From positions 1 to 64,000 of the forward strand of contig SUZW01000007.1 of assembly GCA_015059685.1 (NCBI GenBank): a DNA stretch of 64,000 nucleotides. Direction: 5' to 3'. Below, one piece after another: positions 304 through 63,386 of the stretch. Within the stretch, counting starts at the first letter, position 1. Each line of letters starts with the position of its first letter. The translations under genes were made by a program, and so were the position numbers. The notes beneath the pieces were generated by a model. That model saw nothing but the letters and a program-made list of their open reading frames with translations. It did no database searches and was not told where the DNA came from. The stretch is from Rikenellaceae bacterium (GTDB lineage: Bacteria; Bacteroidota; Bacteroidia; Bacteroidales; Rikenellaceae).

Positions 304-320
304 AAATTGCGCCGCAAAAA

Positions 321-348
321 AGCCAATGGCTAATGGCTAATGGCTAAC
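321..348. repeat. Heptamer tandem repeat, GGCTAAT type
   Basis: Four contiguous 7-bp units: AGCCAAT, GGCTAAT, GGCTAAT, GGCTAAC. The same family recurs at 3724-3758 before clpP and, inverted, at 59442-59469 before proS. Confidence 0.8.
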
Positions 349-411
349 AAAGCTGGGTATCGTTTTCGATACCCGATTTTATATTGCGGTCTTTTTGGCT
401 TGTTTGAGGAC

Positions 412-2039: not shown

Positions 2040-2201
2040 AATGGCATTCGCTCACGATGTTCGCTGAATGGCAACGAATGGCATTCGCTCGTTTCACTCG
2101 CTTAATGGCAAGCCGACAAAATTGTTATTCTATGCTATTCAGCACTCTGCAAGAGTGCGCATGCCATTCAGGGCGCAAGCCCGAATGTCATTTAATGCCA
2201 T
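2040..2201. repeat. AATGGCA-box element with interposed mini-hairpins (copy A)
   Basis: AATGGCA boxes lie at 2040, 2067, 2077 and 2104; inverted boxes (TGCCATT or TGCCAT) lie at 2162 and 2196. Between them are small perfect hairpins such as GCACTC-TGCAA-GAGTGC (2142-2158) and GGGC-GCAA-GCCC (2171-2182). The element is noncoding and lies between divergent genes. Confidence 0.75.
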
Positions 2202-3702: not shown

Positions 3703-3723
3703 AATCTTTGAGAAACAAATAAA

Positions 3724-3758
3724 GGCTAATGGCCAATGGCCAATAGCTAATGGCTATA
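3724..3758. repeat. Heptamer tandem repeat abutting the clpP start
   Basis: Five 7-bp units (GGCTAAT, GGCCAAT, GGCCAAT, AGCTAAT, GGCTATA) end five bases before the clpP ATG at 3764, so they occupy the place of a ribosome binding site. Confidence 0.8.
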
Positions 3759-24834: not shown

Positions 24835-24869
24835 AACTGTCAATTATCAATTGTCAATTGTCAATTAGA
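24835..24869. repeat. Heptamer tandem repeat, AATTGTC type
   Basis: Five phased 7-bp units: AACTGTC, AATTATC, AATTGTC, AATTGTC, AATTAGA. They end next to the stop codon of the PH-like gene. Confidence 0.8.
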
Positions 24870-54816: not shown

Positions 54817-54966
54817 ATGGCATTTAATGGCAGCGCAGTCTGCGACTGCTTAATGGCAAAGCGCAGAAAGCTGCAACAAAAAAGCGTAAACGCCTGCCAT
54901 TCAGCGACCAACGGGAGCGATTGCCATTCAGTGAGCGTTAGCGAACGCCTGCCATTCAATGCCATT
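54817..54966. repeat. AATGGCA-box element with mini-hairpins (copy B)
   Basis: Forward boxes lie at 54817, 54826 and 54852; inverted TGCCATT boxes at 54895, 54922, 54950 and 54960. Hairpins between boxes include GCAGT-CTGCG-ACTGC (54835-54849) and GCGTT-AGCG-AACGC (54935-54948). It occupies the noncoding gap after nagB. Confidence 0.75.
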
Positions 54967-59418: not shown

Positions 59419-59441
59419 ATATTTTGTATTTTTGTTTTTTT

Positions 59442-59469
59442 GCCATTAGCTATTGGCCATTAGCCATTA
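59442..59469. repeat. Heptamer tandem repeat in the proS leader
   Basis: Four 7-bp units (GCCATTA, GCTATTG, GCCATTA, GCCATTA) are the complement of the GGCTAAT family seen at 321 and 3724. They lie between the proS promoter and start. Confidence 0.75.
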
Positions 59470-59489
59470 GCTCTTTGTCGCACGAACTG

Positions 59490-59529: not shown

Positions 59530-61425
59530 CTACTTTTTGCTTCGCAACCACTCCGAGGCTATCGCATCTGACGGCATACGCAGGTCGCCTCGTGGCGAGA
59601 GCGATACGCTTACGACCTTCGGTCCATCGGGTGCTGCCGAGCGTTTGAACTGCTGCGAGAAGAAGCGACGCAGAAATACCTCCAACCAGTGCGCTATCTC
59701 CTCCTTTGAAAACTCTCCGCAGAAGGCACGACACGCCAGGAACTCAATCTTCGTAGGCGAGAAGCCGTTGGCGAGGAAGTTGTAGATAAAGAAGTCGTGC
59801 AGTGCGTAAGGGCCAACCAAATCCTCGGTCTTTTGCGCTATATTGCCCTCGTTGTCGGCAGGCAACAACTCCGGACTTACGGGTGTAGCTACAATATCGT
59901 GTAGAGTTGTGCGCACCTGTGCGTTGGTGTCGTTTTCGGCGCACCACTCAACAATTTTGCGCACCAAAGTCTTTGGTATCGAGCAGTTTACATTGTACAT
60001 CGACATCGAGTCGCCATTGTAGGTCGCCCAGCCGAGTGCCGCTTCGCTCAAATCGCCCGTACCGATGACGATGCCGTTCTCCTTGTTTGCCAGGTCCATA
60101 AGTATCTGCGTACGCTCACGAGCTTGCGCATTTTCGTATGCTGCACCTCGCTCGTTAGGGTTCAAACCGATATCGGCAAAGTGCTGTTCGCAAGCCTTGC
60201 GGATAGATATCTCTCGTGTTGTGATACCCAACTCACGCATCAGAGTTAGCGCATTTTGGTAGGTGCGGTCGGTGGTGCCGAAGCCCGGCATCGTAACACC
60301 GATAATGCCCTTACGGTCGAGTCCGAGCGTGTCGAAAGTAGCCGCTGTTACCAACAACGCCAAGGTCGAGTCCAAACCGCCCGAAATGCCGATAACTGCG
60401 CACTTGCAGTTGATGCTCGAAAGGCGTTGAGCCAAGCCTGCACACTGAATTGTGAACGCCTCACAGCAACCCTCCGAGAGGTCGGCAGGGATAAATGGTG
60501 CAGGGTTAATTTTGCGCTCCAACTCGCTCTCGGGTTGTGCGATATCAATCTTTACGACATCGAAACGATTGTCGAGGTTGATAAACGATGTATGACGGCG
60601 GCGCTCGTTGAAGATATGCTCAACATCGATATCTGCAACGGTCAATCGCGCTTCACGCACAAATCGCTCACGCGCAGCGATGATTGTGCCATTCTCGGCA
60701 ATGATGCCGTTACCCGTAAATACGAGGTCAGTTGATGATTCTCCTACACCTGCCGAGCAGTAGATATATCCGCACAATGCTCGTGCCGACTGCTGCTTGA
60801 TAAGCGAACGCAAGTAGTTGTGCTTACCCAAAATCTCGGGCGTTGCCGAGAGGTTGAAGATAAGCGTTGCACCTGCTAATGCCATATCCGATGATGGTGG
60901 TGCAGGAACCCATAAATCCTCGCAAATCTCCACTCCGAAGCGTGTGCCGTGAACATCAAACAAGAGGTCTGTGCCGAAGCGCACTCGCTGACCGCAGATT
61001 GTAATCTCGGCATTGCGGATATCGCGACCTTCCGAAAACCAGCGGCTCTCGTAGAACTCCGAGTAGTTCGGGATATAGCTCTTTGGAACTATACCGCAGA
61101 TTTTGCCGTTGGCAATCACTACGGCGCAGTTGTAGAGGTTGTTTTTGTAGTATATCGGCATACCGATAATCGACACAATAGGTCGTGGCGTAGCGAGTAA
61201 CTGCGCCAAAGCCTCATCGCCAGCCTCGATAATTCTCGACTGCAGGAACAGGTCGCCACAAGTGTAACCCGTAAGCGAGAGCTCGGGGAAGACCACCACA
61301 CTCGCACCTCGCTCCACCGCCTCGGCAGTCATCTTGTCAATCGCCTCGGCATTGGCGTGGCAGTCGGCAATCTTCACCAGCGGTGTCGCCGCTGCAACCT
61401 TAACAAATCCATATCTATTGTTCAT
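59530..61425 (-). CDS. nadE: Glutamine-dependent NAD+ synthetase
   Basis: A 631-residue two-domain enzyme for the last step of NAD synthesis. The N-terminal nitrilase-like glutaminase domain has the catalytic triad Glu48 (VFPELSLTGY), Lys115 (VPKSYIPNY) and Cys168 (GVEICEDLW), so ammonia can come from glutamine. The C-terminal synthetase domain has the ATP pyrophosphatase loop GISGGLDSTLALL, MPGFGTTDRTYQNA and GTGDLSEAALGWATYNGD. Complete. It appears to be a single gene; an AATGGCA-box repeat lies directly upstream, with no clear promoter box. Confidence 0.96.
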   Translation of the reverse strand: MNNRYGFVKVAAATPLVKIADCHANAEAIDKMTAEAVERGASVVVFPELSLTGYTCGDLFLQSRIIEAGDEALAQLLATPRPIVSIIGMPIYYKNNLYNCAVVIANGKICGIVPKSYIPNYSEFYESRWFSEGRDIRNAEITICGQRVRFGTDLLFDVHGTRFGVEICEDLWVPAPPSSDMALAGATLIFNLSATPEILGKHNYLRSLIKQQSARALCGYIYCSAGVGESSTDLVFTGNGIIAENGTIIAARERFVREARLTVADIDVEHIFNERRRHTSFINLDNRFDVVKIDIAQPESELERKINPAPFIPADLSEGCCEAFTIQCAGLAQRLSSINCKCAVIGISGGLDSTLALLVTAATFDTLGLDRKGIIGVTMPGFGTTDRTYQNALTLMRELGITTREISIRKACEQHFADIGLNPNERGAAYENAQARERTQILMDLANKENGIVIGTGDLSEAALGWATYNGDSMSMYNVNCSIPKTLVRKIVEWCAENDTNAQVRTTLHDIVATPVSPELLPADNEGNIAQKTEDLVGPYALHDFFIYNFLANGFSPTKIEFLACRAFCGEFSKEEIAHWLEVFLRRFFSQQFKRSAAPDGPKVVSVSLSPRGDLRMPSDAIASEWLRSKK

Positions 61426-61439
61426 ACCTTGTATGTTTT

Positions 61440-61518
61440 AATGGCATTCAATGGCATTCAGGCTTTCAGCCCTTAATGGCATGCGCAATCATAGATTGCT
61501 GAATGGCATTGAATGGCA
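61440..61518. repeat. AATGGCA-box element with mini-hairpins (copy C)
   Basis: Boxes lie at 61440, 61450, 61475, 61502 and 61512 (10-bp phase within the pairs). The hairpins between are GGCT-TTC-AGCC (61461-61471) and GCAAT-CATAG-ATTGC (61485-61499). It lies between nadE and the four-helix-bundle gene. Confidence 0.8.
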
Positions 61519-61524
61519 AAAATA

Positions 61525-62073
61525 CTACTTTTTCTTCTTTTTGTCAATACGAGCCTTTGTTAAGGACTCTTTGAAACCGCCTTCATCAACAAAGCGCTTG
61601 ATTTGTTTCTCGATATGCTTGCGCAATAGCACATCCTCCTGGTATAGCAATACAATCGCCATATTTGCAATTACTTCGTCGTTTCTCGTCTCGGCTAACT
61701 CCAAAAAGAATTTTGAGTCACGATGCTTTATGCCAAGTTCTCGCATAGCCTCGACCTCTTTCGATTCTGTCTCCCATATTCGCAAATTGCGAGTTCGTAG
61801 ATAGTCGATATAGTCTTCCAGCAACTCTTGAAAACTATACCTCGCCACGCCCAACAACTTTAAGTGCGTTTCGGCAGATGTTAGCGACGCAGCCTTTCCC
61901 TCGACAATATTCTGCTTACCTGAACGAGCGGCCTGTATCATTTGGTCTTTGGTTCGGTCGCCTATGGAGATAAATCTCTCGCAGAAATGGTAGGTTAAAT
62001 CGTAGATAACCACCGCCTTGCGATAGGCAATAAGATTGCGATACAAATTGTTATTTTGCCTTGTTATATCCAT
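61525..62073 (-). CDS. Four-helix-bundle protein (23S rRNA intervening-sequence protein family)
   Basis: A 182-residue helical protein. The start at 62073 (MDITRQNNNLYRNLIAYRKA) is the first ATG. Family features are LIAYRKAVVIYDLTYHF, QMIQAARSGKQNIVEGKAA and SAETHLKLLGVARYSFQELLEDYIDYL, and a Lys-rich tail ends it. This family is found in intervening sequences of some 23S rRNA genes, and a relative is the Avd accessory protein of diversity-generating retroelements. No reverse transcriptase, template repeat or rRNA gene is nearby, so its role is unknown. Box repeats flank it on both sides. Confidence 0.85.
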   Translation of the reverse strand: MDITRQNNNLYRNLIAYRKAVVIYDLTYHFCERFISIGDRTKDQMIQAARSGKQNIVEGKAASLTSAETHLKLLGVARYSFQELLEDYIDYLRTRNLRIWETESKEVEAMRELGIKHRDSKFFLELAETRNDEVIANMAIVLLYQEDVLLRKHIEKQIKRFVDEGGFKESLTKARIDKKKKK

Positions 62074-62083
62074 CTTCAAAATC

Positions 62084-62148
62084 TGCCATTAAATGCCATT
62101 CAGTGAGCGTAAGCGAACGCCTGCCATTCGTTGCCATTCTATGCCATT
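62084..62148. repeat. TGCCATT-box element (copy D)
   Basis: Boxes lie at 62084, 62094, 62122, 62132 and 62142 in strict 10-bp phase within each run. GCGT-AAGCGA-ACGC (62107-62120) lies between the runs. The segment CAGTGAGCGT.AGCGAACGCC is shared with copy B. Confidence 0.8.
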
Positions 62149-62168: not shown

Positions 62169-63386
62169 TTATTTCGCCCAGAGTTGGCAGAGGTTGATAA
62201 TAACCTTTACCGCCTTCTCCATAGTGTTCAGTGAGCAGTACTCGAATTTGCCGTGGAAGTTCATTCCGCCTGCAAAGATATTAGGGCAAGGCAAACCCAT
62301 AAACGAGAGGCGTGCGCCATCTGTTCCGCCACGAATAGGCTTTACGATTGGCGTTACATCTGCCTCGACCATCGCCTCCTTCGCCAACTCGATAACCTGC
62401 GGATGCGGCTCAACCATCTTGCGCATATTGTAGTATTGGTCTTTGAGGGTAAGTTTTAGCACCCCCTCGCCATACTTGTTGTTGAGGATACCCACGATAT
62501 TGTGCATCCACACCTTCTTTGCCTCGAACTTGTCGGCATCGTGGTCACGAATGATATAAGAGATTGTAGCCTCCTCGACACTACCCGTGATACCTACGCA
62601 GTGGTAGAAGCCCTCGTAACCCTCGGTATATTGTGGTCGCTCCACAGCAGGAACAAGCGAGTTCAACTCGCACGCCACATCGATAGCGTTAATCATCTTA
62701 TTTTTGGCATATCCGGGGTGGACATTGCGACCTTGAATGGCAATTTTTGCCGATGCAGCGTTGAAGTTCTCATACTCCAACTCGCCCTCGTAGCTACCGT
62801 CCATCGTGTAGGCGAAATCTGCGCCAAACGCCTTTACATCGAAGAAATCTACACCACGACCAATCTCCTCGTCAGGGGTAAAGCCGATACGGATCTTGCC
62901 GTGCTCCACCTCTGGGTGCGACATCAAGTACTCCGCAGCAGTCATAATCTCTGCTACGCCCGCCTTGTCGTCAGCTCCGAGCAGCGTTGTGCCGTCAGTG
63001 TGGATAAGAGTATGACCAATAAAGCGGCTCAACTCGGGGAACTCCGCTACACGCATCGTGAGCGAAGGGTTTAAGACGATATCCTTGCCGTCATACTCCT
63101 CGATAATGCGTGGGCGAACATCCTTGCCACTCATATCGGGCGAAGTATCGACATGGGCGAGGAAGCCGATTACAGGGGCATTCTCCTTGCCTTTGGTCGC
63201 AGGGATAGTACCCATAGCGTAGCCGTACTTGTCGATGCTTACATCCTCCAAGCCGAGTGCCTTCATCTCCTCGACCAAGAGGTTTAACAAATCCCACTCC
63301 TTCGCTGACGAAGGGAATGTTTCGCTATTCTCGTCTGATTGCGTATCTATCGCAACATACTTCAAAAATCTATCTTTCAGTTCCAT
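62169..63386 (-). CDS. pepT: Peptidase T (tripeptide aminopeptidase)
   Basis: A 405-residue M20B metallopeptidase that removes the N-terminal residue from tripeptides in the cytoplasm. Two-zinc site motifs are GFLAHVDTSPDMSG, LLGADDKAGVAEIM, GFTPDEEIGRG and AYTMDGSYEGELE, with a late GGTDGARLSFMGLPCPNIFAGG. Full length. It lies downstream of an OPT-family peptide transporter gene on the same strand, separated by a repeat region. Import of small peptides followed by trimming is a reasonable joint role. Confidence 0.95.
   Translation of the reverse strand: MELKDRFLKYVAIDTQSDENSETFPSSAKEWDLLNLLVEEMKALGLEDVSIDKYGYAMGTIPATKGKENAPVIGFLAHVDTSPDMSGKDVRPRIIEEYDGKDIVLNPSLTMRVAEFPELSRFIGHTLIHTDGTTLLGADDKAGVAEIMTAAEYLMSHPEVEHGKIRIGFTPDEEIGRGVDFFDVKAFGADFAYTMDGSYEGELEYENFNAASAKIAIQGRNVHPGYAKNKMINAIDVACELNSLVPAVERPQYTEGYEGFYHCVGITGSVEEATISYIIRDHDADKFEAKKVWMHNIVGILNNKYGEGVLKLTLKDQYYNMRKMVEPHPQVIELAKEAMVEADVTPIVKPIRGGTDGARLSFMGLPCPNIFAGGMNFHGKFEYCSLNTMEKAVKVIINLCQLWAK

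Follow-up and report, generated by a model that had tools for sequence, protein, structure and literature searches.

AATGGCA box arrays beside a small four-helix-bundle gene likely serve a little-studied mobile element as recognition sites

We analyzed a 64,000-nucleotide stretch of DNA from a Rikenellaceae bacterium (GenBank assembly GCA_015059685.1, contig SUZW01000007.1, positions 1 to 64,000; hereafter the window), in which arrays of a short box, AATGGCA, stand on either side of a gene for a small four-helix-bundle protein. Because such arrays flank all three copies of this gene in the genome and, mostly with an unchanged internal order, recur at about 40 sites that lack the gene, we consider that they are likely the ends and the gene-less relatives of one mobile element. 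We put the probability of this reading, in which the protein is predicted to recognize the boxes, at roughly 0.55. In the sampled relatives, which come from several phyla, the arrays beside genes of this family are likewise likely to be sites that a little-studied mobile element recognizes.

The protein scored 61.9 bits against TIGR04258 (the suffix family; curated cut-off 40) and 25.7 bits against TIGR02436 (cut-off 24), and it scored 22.8 bits against PF05635, below the gathering score of 33.8. All proteins of our alignment A1 (24/24) matched TIGR04258 at E ≤ 0.001. The window protein has the S23 four-helix fold, a second structure aligner ranking the structures 2gsc and 2rld first; Foldseek by itself found no significant fold match for it, and a sequence search of the PDB returned 2gsc as the sole match (E 0.028). 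The two other copies in the genome are 96% identical to that of the window, and each lies between AATGGCA arrays. Among the matches listed, the closest named relatives (87–90% protein identity) belong to Alistipes-labelled metagenome-assembled genomes from the guts of water buffalo, goat and cattle.

The AATGGCA box occurs 40 times in the window, as compared with 9.9 occurrences expected and a maximum of 17 over 100 shuffles. Across the 1.8-Mb genome, the pair AATGGCA-N3..30-AATGGCA was found 93 times in the forward and 91 times in the reverse orientation (184), and the reversed pattern 0 and 1 times. The gaps from box to box are bimodal, being either 3 nt, which places the boxes in 10-bp phase (n = 104), or 15–22 nt (n = 140), and the genome holds about 40 elements built in this way. 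An earlier reading of the window from its letters (the sequence-only reading) had reported AATGGCA/TGCCATT boxes, often in 10-bp phase, in four gaps. Both observations held, with boxes present in 4/4 gaps. Two of these gaps, 61440–61518 and 62084–62148, had been counted as separate sites; they flank one gene and form a single element (Table 1).

We examined 41 genomic stretches that surround box clusters, together with the three sites of the window, and catalogued 47 clusters. The palindromes between boxes had been described as free to differ each time. Instead, the long spacers comprise four recurring types: A, like GCGTTCGCTAACGCTCAC; B, like CGCTCCCGTTGGTCGC; C, like GCAGTC..GACTGC; and D, like GGGC..GCCC. 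Their order is fixed, with A and B on one arm, then the centre, then C and D on the other arm. A/B and C/D lay on opposite arms in 39 of 44 stretches, C lay inside D in 28/28 and A outside B in 21/23, and all three gene-bearing elements read A, gene, C, D. The opposite placement of A/B and C/D, matching that in the gene-bearing elements, rules out a stand-alone palindrome repeat. With its inverted box arms, and with the longer outer inverted repeats carried by the commonest gene-less subfamily, the element has terminal inverted repeats like those of a miniature inverted-repeat transposable element (MITE). Around members of this subfamily (L056, L070, L073, L075 and similar loci), 9-bp GTTAGGGGC-type arrays lie outside the outer inverted repeats, about 60–90 bases beyond the AATGGCA arms, as though one element were nested within another.

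Comparison of corresponding junctions among related genomes revealed filled and empty sites. The junction between nadE and pepT carries a gene-bearing element in genomes G000 and G057, a decayed copy with internal stops in G031 and a gene-less array in G030; the element is absent from G047, where 36 bases separate the flanks, and from G058, where the flanks abut. In G057, an extra stretch of about 1.4 kb adjoins the orthologous element (L207, G057:C30:12980-14397). A second junction, between an aminotransferase gene and rarA (both named by eye), carries a short-class gene of the family with its arrays in G000 and G005. At this junction the downstream gene of G057 starts almost directly after the upstream stop codon, G047 has a gene-less array of a different heptamer family, and G058 has no gene of the family. 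The array units here are GAGAGTT in G000 and GAGAACT in G005. Since the units differ at a corresponding site and gene, and GAGAACT persists as the innermost unit of G000, these sequences suggest that units are replaced along an array.

Table 1. Positions of the element, its gene-less relatives, neighboring genes and period-7 arrays in the window
Feature	Position	Strand	Description
Array arm at gene 3′ end	61440..61518	+	Five AATGGCA boxes, some at 10-bp steps; spacers D (GGCT..AGCC) and C (GCAATC..GATTGC), one of each
Four-helix-bundle protein gene, 184 aa	61525..62079	-	Assigned by profile matches
Array arm at gene 5′ end	62084..62148	-	Five AATGGCA boxes, some at 10-bp steps; one A spacer (GCGTTCGCTTACGC)
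Gene-less element	2040..2201	.	Order B B, centre, C D
Gene-less element, commonest subfamily	54817..54966	.	Typed A B, centre, C
NAD synthase gene (nadE), neighbor of the insertion site	59530..61425	-	
Peptidase T gene (pepT), other neighbor of the insertion site	62169..63386	-	
Period-7 array, AATGGCT units	318..349	.	Heptamer also flanks a short-class four-helix-bundle gene on contig C3 of the same genome
Period-7 array, AATGGCT family	3720..3756	.	
Period-7 array, AGCCATT (AATGGCT) family	59440..59475	.	Read by eye, not in the array-scan listing; similar stretches in relatives

Genes of the family are also accompanied by arrays in other organisms, and there the step of the array goes with the class of the protein. 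We scored flanks of 350 bp and called an array significant at p ≤ 0.02 against 100–200 shuffles within 50-base blocks. The named suffix-class loci were the best 80 of 562 confirmed relatives, and the 30 short-class loci were fetched from a longer match list by their high TIGR02436 scores, unscanned for the suffix domain. Arrays with a 9/10-bp step were significant at 55/80 suffix-class loci and 1/30 short-class loci; by contrast, 7-bp arrays were significant at 2/80 and 25/30, respectively. With shifted windows, 7/80 suffix loci at 800 bp and 3/80 at 1500 bp were significant (lags 8–11), as were 2/30 short-class loci for the 7-bp step at 800 bp. Suffix loci drawn from the relatives of the genome gave 21/27 significant, at least 8 of the 27 being the same DNA as named loci. 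From 25 tblastn matches to plasmid-borne short-class genes, 13 were fetched before their flanks were inspected, mostly one per organism; 12/13 had 7-bp arrays (Treponema, Bernardetia, Chlorohelix and nine cyanobacteria), spanning Cyanobacteriota, Spirochaetota, Chloroflexota and Bacteroidota. The sole suffix gene found on a plasmid, in Prevotella nigrescens, had a 9-bp array. Gaps beside the gene held arrays more often than other intergenic gaps of the same loci (68/120 vs 12/181 for the suffix class, 30/38 vs 6/27 for the short class and 10/11 vs 2/14 for plasmids). Finally, step 9 versus step 10 clustered on the tree of suffix proteins, from which L149, with a stop, was excluded (42 loci had step 9, 14 had step 10 and 23 had none): 8 changes were counted against a shuffled mean of 12.6, and as few were seen in 0 and 1 of 500 shuffles, in a test that included near-copies, which helps clustering.

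These data bear on the view that the arrays are independent repeats, selfish or born of slippage, and that the genes are passengers which landed in or beside them and whose protein does not act on the array. Slippage would be expected to produce differences of whole 7-nt units, as are seen in array length between two Planktothrix strains, and arrays for which no cognate gene was found, in G030 and G058, as well as the gene-less heptamer array of another family at the rarA junction of G047, are also in keeping with it. Landing, however, would not sort genes by step as the two classes are sorted, a pattern that was repeated on plasmids, mostly from other phyla; moreover, the dispersal of two boxes follows the genome that holds the cognate gene, as detailed below. 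We consider it unlikely that the genes are passengers.

The sequence of the box varies with lineage. The gene or a piece of it was found in 30 of 101 genomes (that of the window and 100 relatives), and the boxes at its flanks vary among lineages, reading AATGACA in a 77%-identical relative and CCTGGGAA, CTTAAGG, TTAGGGA and others elsewhere, many at 9- or 10-bp steps. At a 10-bp step, CCTGGGAA occurs in one genome of the 101 (G056), where 20 matches flank the gene and a further 11 are spread over four other sites. Three consecutive AGTTCTC units were matched 17 times, 16 of these in G005, whose short-class gene carries AGTTCTC, and one in G057, with none in the other 99 genomes. In the genome of the window, three short-class genes are flanked by three different heptamers, one per gene (AACTCTC, ACTACTC and AGCCATT). 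The association with the gene, the class-bound step, the lineage-bound box, the gene-less arrays and the polymorphism of sites are most simply accounted for by a selfish element whose protein recognizes its own array. If the protein were instead an RNA-binding regulator of the host and the dispersed arrays its sites beside host genes, the good folding of the element as RNA would be explained; such a network has to contend, however, with gene-bearing copies that come and go at orthologous sites, with three short-class genes of different heptamers in one genome and with the decay of the G031 copy. Because of this turnover of sites, the coexisting heptamers and the decayed copy, the arrays look more selfish than regulatory, and we judge a regulatory network quite unlikely.

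We then consider the hairpins. The 80 different long spacers (of 145) had a mean RNA folding energy of -4.67, as compared with -1.85 for shuffled spacers and -2.33 for the lowest of 200 shuffled set means; taken singly, 39/80 reached p ≤ 0.05. As the sequence-only reading had anticipated, the spacer set is thus more self-complementary than shuffled sequence, the signal coming almost wholly from C (18/18 different sequences at p ≤ 0.05) and D (20/20). The small hairpins that it placed between boxes are therefore borne out for these two types and not for A (0/13) or B (0/21), 8/80 spacers being unclassified; its GCGTT..AACGC palindrome is an A spacer, a true inverted repeat whose folding does not exceed that of shuffles. 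The two arms of the hairpins covary. Pair 4 of the C spacer (n = 18) is G-C in 10, C-G in 5 and A-T in 3, and the inner two pairs of the B spacer read GT/AC in 10, CC/GG in 6, AC/GT in 3, CT/GG in 1 and GC/AC in 1. With fixed pairing positions, and with counts that come from related copies rather than independent events, the Watson–Crick fraction exceeded that of re-dealt arms for C (0.98 vs 0.88), D (0.95 vs 0.84) and the inner pairs of B (0.95 vs 0.45), each at p < 0.001.

The sequence-only reading had attributed such hairpins to a special process that generates new palindromes while the boxes around them stay fixed, and pairing is indeed kept as the spacer sequence changes. The spacers, however, are of four types at fixed places in a dispersed element, only two of the types are hairpins, and their variation resembles compensatory change. 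Since compensatory change at fixed positions suffices, no special process is needed, and we regard one as highly improbable. Folded as RNA, one element of the commonest subfamily with its flanks had the boxes of its two arms paired with each other (z -4.23); the element at 2040–2201 folded as single-stranded DNA with z -2.66. Perfect stems per kb numbered 8.4 in suffix flanks (4.1 shuffled, 5.9 at 800 bp), 6.6 in short-class flanks (5.4 shuffled, 7.4 at 800 bp) and 5.3 at plasmid loci (4.9 shuffled, 3.2 at 800 bp). On these densities we reject hairpins as a feature of the whole family; they look like a local elaboration. At L107, in another genome of the same genus, a CCCTTTA box by eye alternates with hairpins of varying sequence at the flanks of the gene.

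How might the element work? The protein likely recognizes its own array and acts in trans on gene-less copies. Its S23/IVP-fold relatives Xcc0516 and Avd form oligomers, and the product of this gene may do so as well. In such an oligomer, each subunit would read one of the short boxes in a row, and the distance from box to box would depend on the protein class, 7 nt in the short class and 9–10 nt in the longer suffix class. Steps of 7 and 9 are out of register with the 10.5-bp turn of double-stranded DNA, which makes a single strand, of RNA or DNA, the more likely target. In this genus, surplus sequence would be folded away in the hairpins between boxes, and one arm would pair with the other. 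The folded strand, with the protein bound, could then be copied or carried to new sites, presumably with host enzymes, and the same route might serve both the gene-bearing form and, in trans, the gene-less arrays. Box and protein would change together, leaving each lineage with a box of its own. More tentatively still, one can imagine a class of selfish elements across bacterial phyla in which an enzyme-less helix-bundle protein counts along a single strand, by 7 nt in the short class and 9–10 nt in the suffix class, and recognizes, spreads and homogenizes its own box arrays, the heptamers of cyanobacteria, Beggiatoaceae and Xanthomonas being dispersed remains; this wider proposal is possible, and we do not hold it to be probable.

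Several observations weigh against our reading of the arrays as parts of a mobile element. The helix bundle is the only gene inside the element, in which no transposase, nuclease or polymerase family was matched, and no clean target-site duplication was seen at the nadE–pepT or rarA sites, where the relatives are too diverged. Arrays at the step of the class were not significant at 25/80 suffix and 5/30 short-class loci, and Monoglobus was the 1/13 in the plasmid set that had no 7-bp array. The A and B spacers fold no better than shuffles (0/34 combined). The arms are inverted in the AATGGCA elements; among the suffix loci, 26 are inverted, 39 direct and 14 tied, by which general inversion of boxes across the gene is rejected. 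Nor are AATGGCA pairs confined to one genome: 6/60 relatives of the same genus have 12–52 pairs and the other 54 have 3 or fewer, and in some larger genomes from other families the number reaches 22, at listed places that look scattered. G030 (98% complete) has 52 pairs and G058 (86%) has 37, and the one suffix gene found in each has other boxes beside it, which tells against a strict rule that an array requires a cognate gene in its genome. Moreover, the named genomes are mostly metagenome assemblies, and the relatives share descent.

We compared the element with known systems. Intervening sequences (IVSs) of 23S rRNA that encode S23 protein, such as the Coxiella IVS, have a protein of the same fold family, and the portion of PMC4990558 at hand describes the Coxiella gene as lying within complementary stem-forming ends and calls the IVS a selfish element. 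Unlike these, the present element lies between the protein genes nadE and pepT and not in 23S rRNA, ends in arrays of short boxes and has dispersed gene-less copies; that portion of PMC4990558 mentions no array. A known RNA family was rejected because no match in the window attained the gathering score of any Rfam family.

Heptamers known as short tandemly repeated repetitive (STRR) sequences occur in cyanobacteria. The heptamer families TAACTGA (PMC4679880), Xanthomonas GGGAATC and Nostoc GGGGA(C/T)T (both PMC4692102) are described, in the sections of these papers at hand, as dispersed, largely intergenic tandem 7-nt units of lineage-specific sequence, and for TAACTGA heptamers MacGregor (2015) suggested a role in host regulation as sites of an unidentified binding protein. 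A search of PMC4679880 and PMC4692102 found no mention of S23, four helix or intervening. Most of the short-class genes that we tested are flanked by arrays of this kind (the 25/30 loci at 7 bp given above), whereas the AATGGCA arrays have a 10-bp step and hairpins and not a 7-nt period. A CRISPR array is ruled out by the 7-nt boxes and by spacers that are mostly 3 or 15–22 nt and recurrent.

In repetitive extragenic palindromic (REP) elements, the gene for RAYT, a Y1 (HUH) transposase, is flanked by palindromic repeats that have gene-less copies in trans. The present element is alike in having a protein gene flanked by palindromic repeats and many gene-less copies in trans; its gene matches only helix-bundle families and not a Y1 (HUH) transposase, which excludes REP/RAYT. 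The BrickBuilt MITE of Porphyromonas gingivalis, also of the Bacteroidota, is intergenic and has small tandem units in an inverted-repeat element, and differs in its 23-nt units without spacers; its abstract names no protein (PMC4596501). PF05635 resembles Avd of the diversity-generating retroelements, which works with nucleic acid (PMC10053308).

For years, descriptions of dispersed heptamer repeats have come with no partner protein, and MacGregor (2015) named the finding of a repeat-binding protein as a test of a mobile-protein model (PMC4679880). On the protein side, the S23/IVP-type four-helix-bundle structures 2gsc and 2rld, the latter that of the short-class protein BT_0352 of Bacteroides thetaiotaomicron, are labelled unknown or hypothetical. 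The correspondence between array step and protein class across samples of several phyla connects the puzzle of the heptamer repeats with that of the S23 proteins and is directly testable by binding. Our searches of open-licence papers turned up none that draws this connection; one may exist elsewhere. A Flavobacterium columnare paper that contained both search words merely tabulates the gene in the part at hand (PMC5524665).

The window holds two further period-7 arrays. One, of TTTTCCG at 2211–2245, lies in a stretch (about 2202–2259) that matches very many places in relatives, these making up most of the matches listed. The other, at 24835–24868, is of AATTGTC, a heptamer carried by none of the three short-class genes examined in this genome.

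Short-class genes on plasmids of different phyla (L256, L264, L260 and L252) lie after a helicase gene and before a gene for a DNA methylase or for restriction-modification, with one extra gene intervening in L252; in Planktothrix the helicase is DrmD of DISARM. In Monoglobus (L255), an unannotated short-class four-helix-bundle gene is bordered by restriction subunit S on one side and HsdR on the other. In Pseudanabaena the short-class gene adjoins cas1, and in Anabaena it lies between cas2 and cas1 (L261 and L262).
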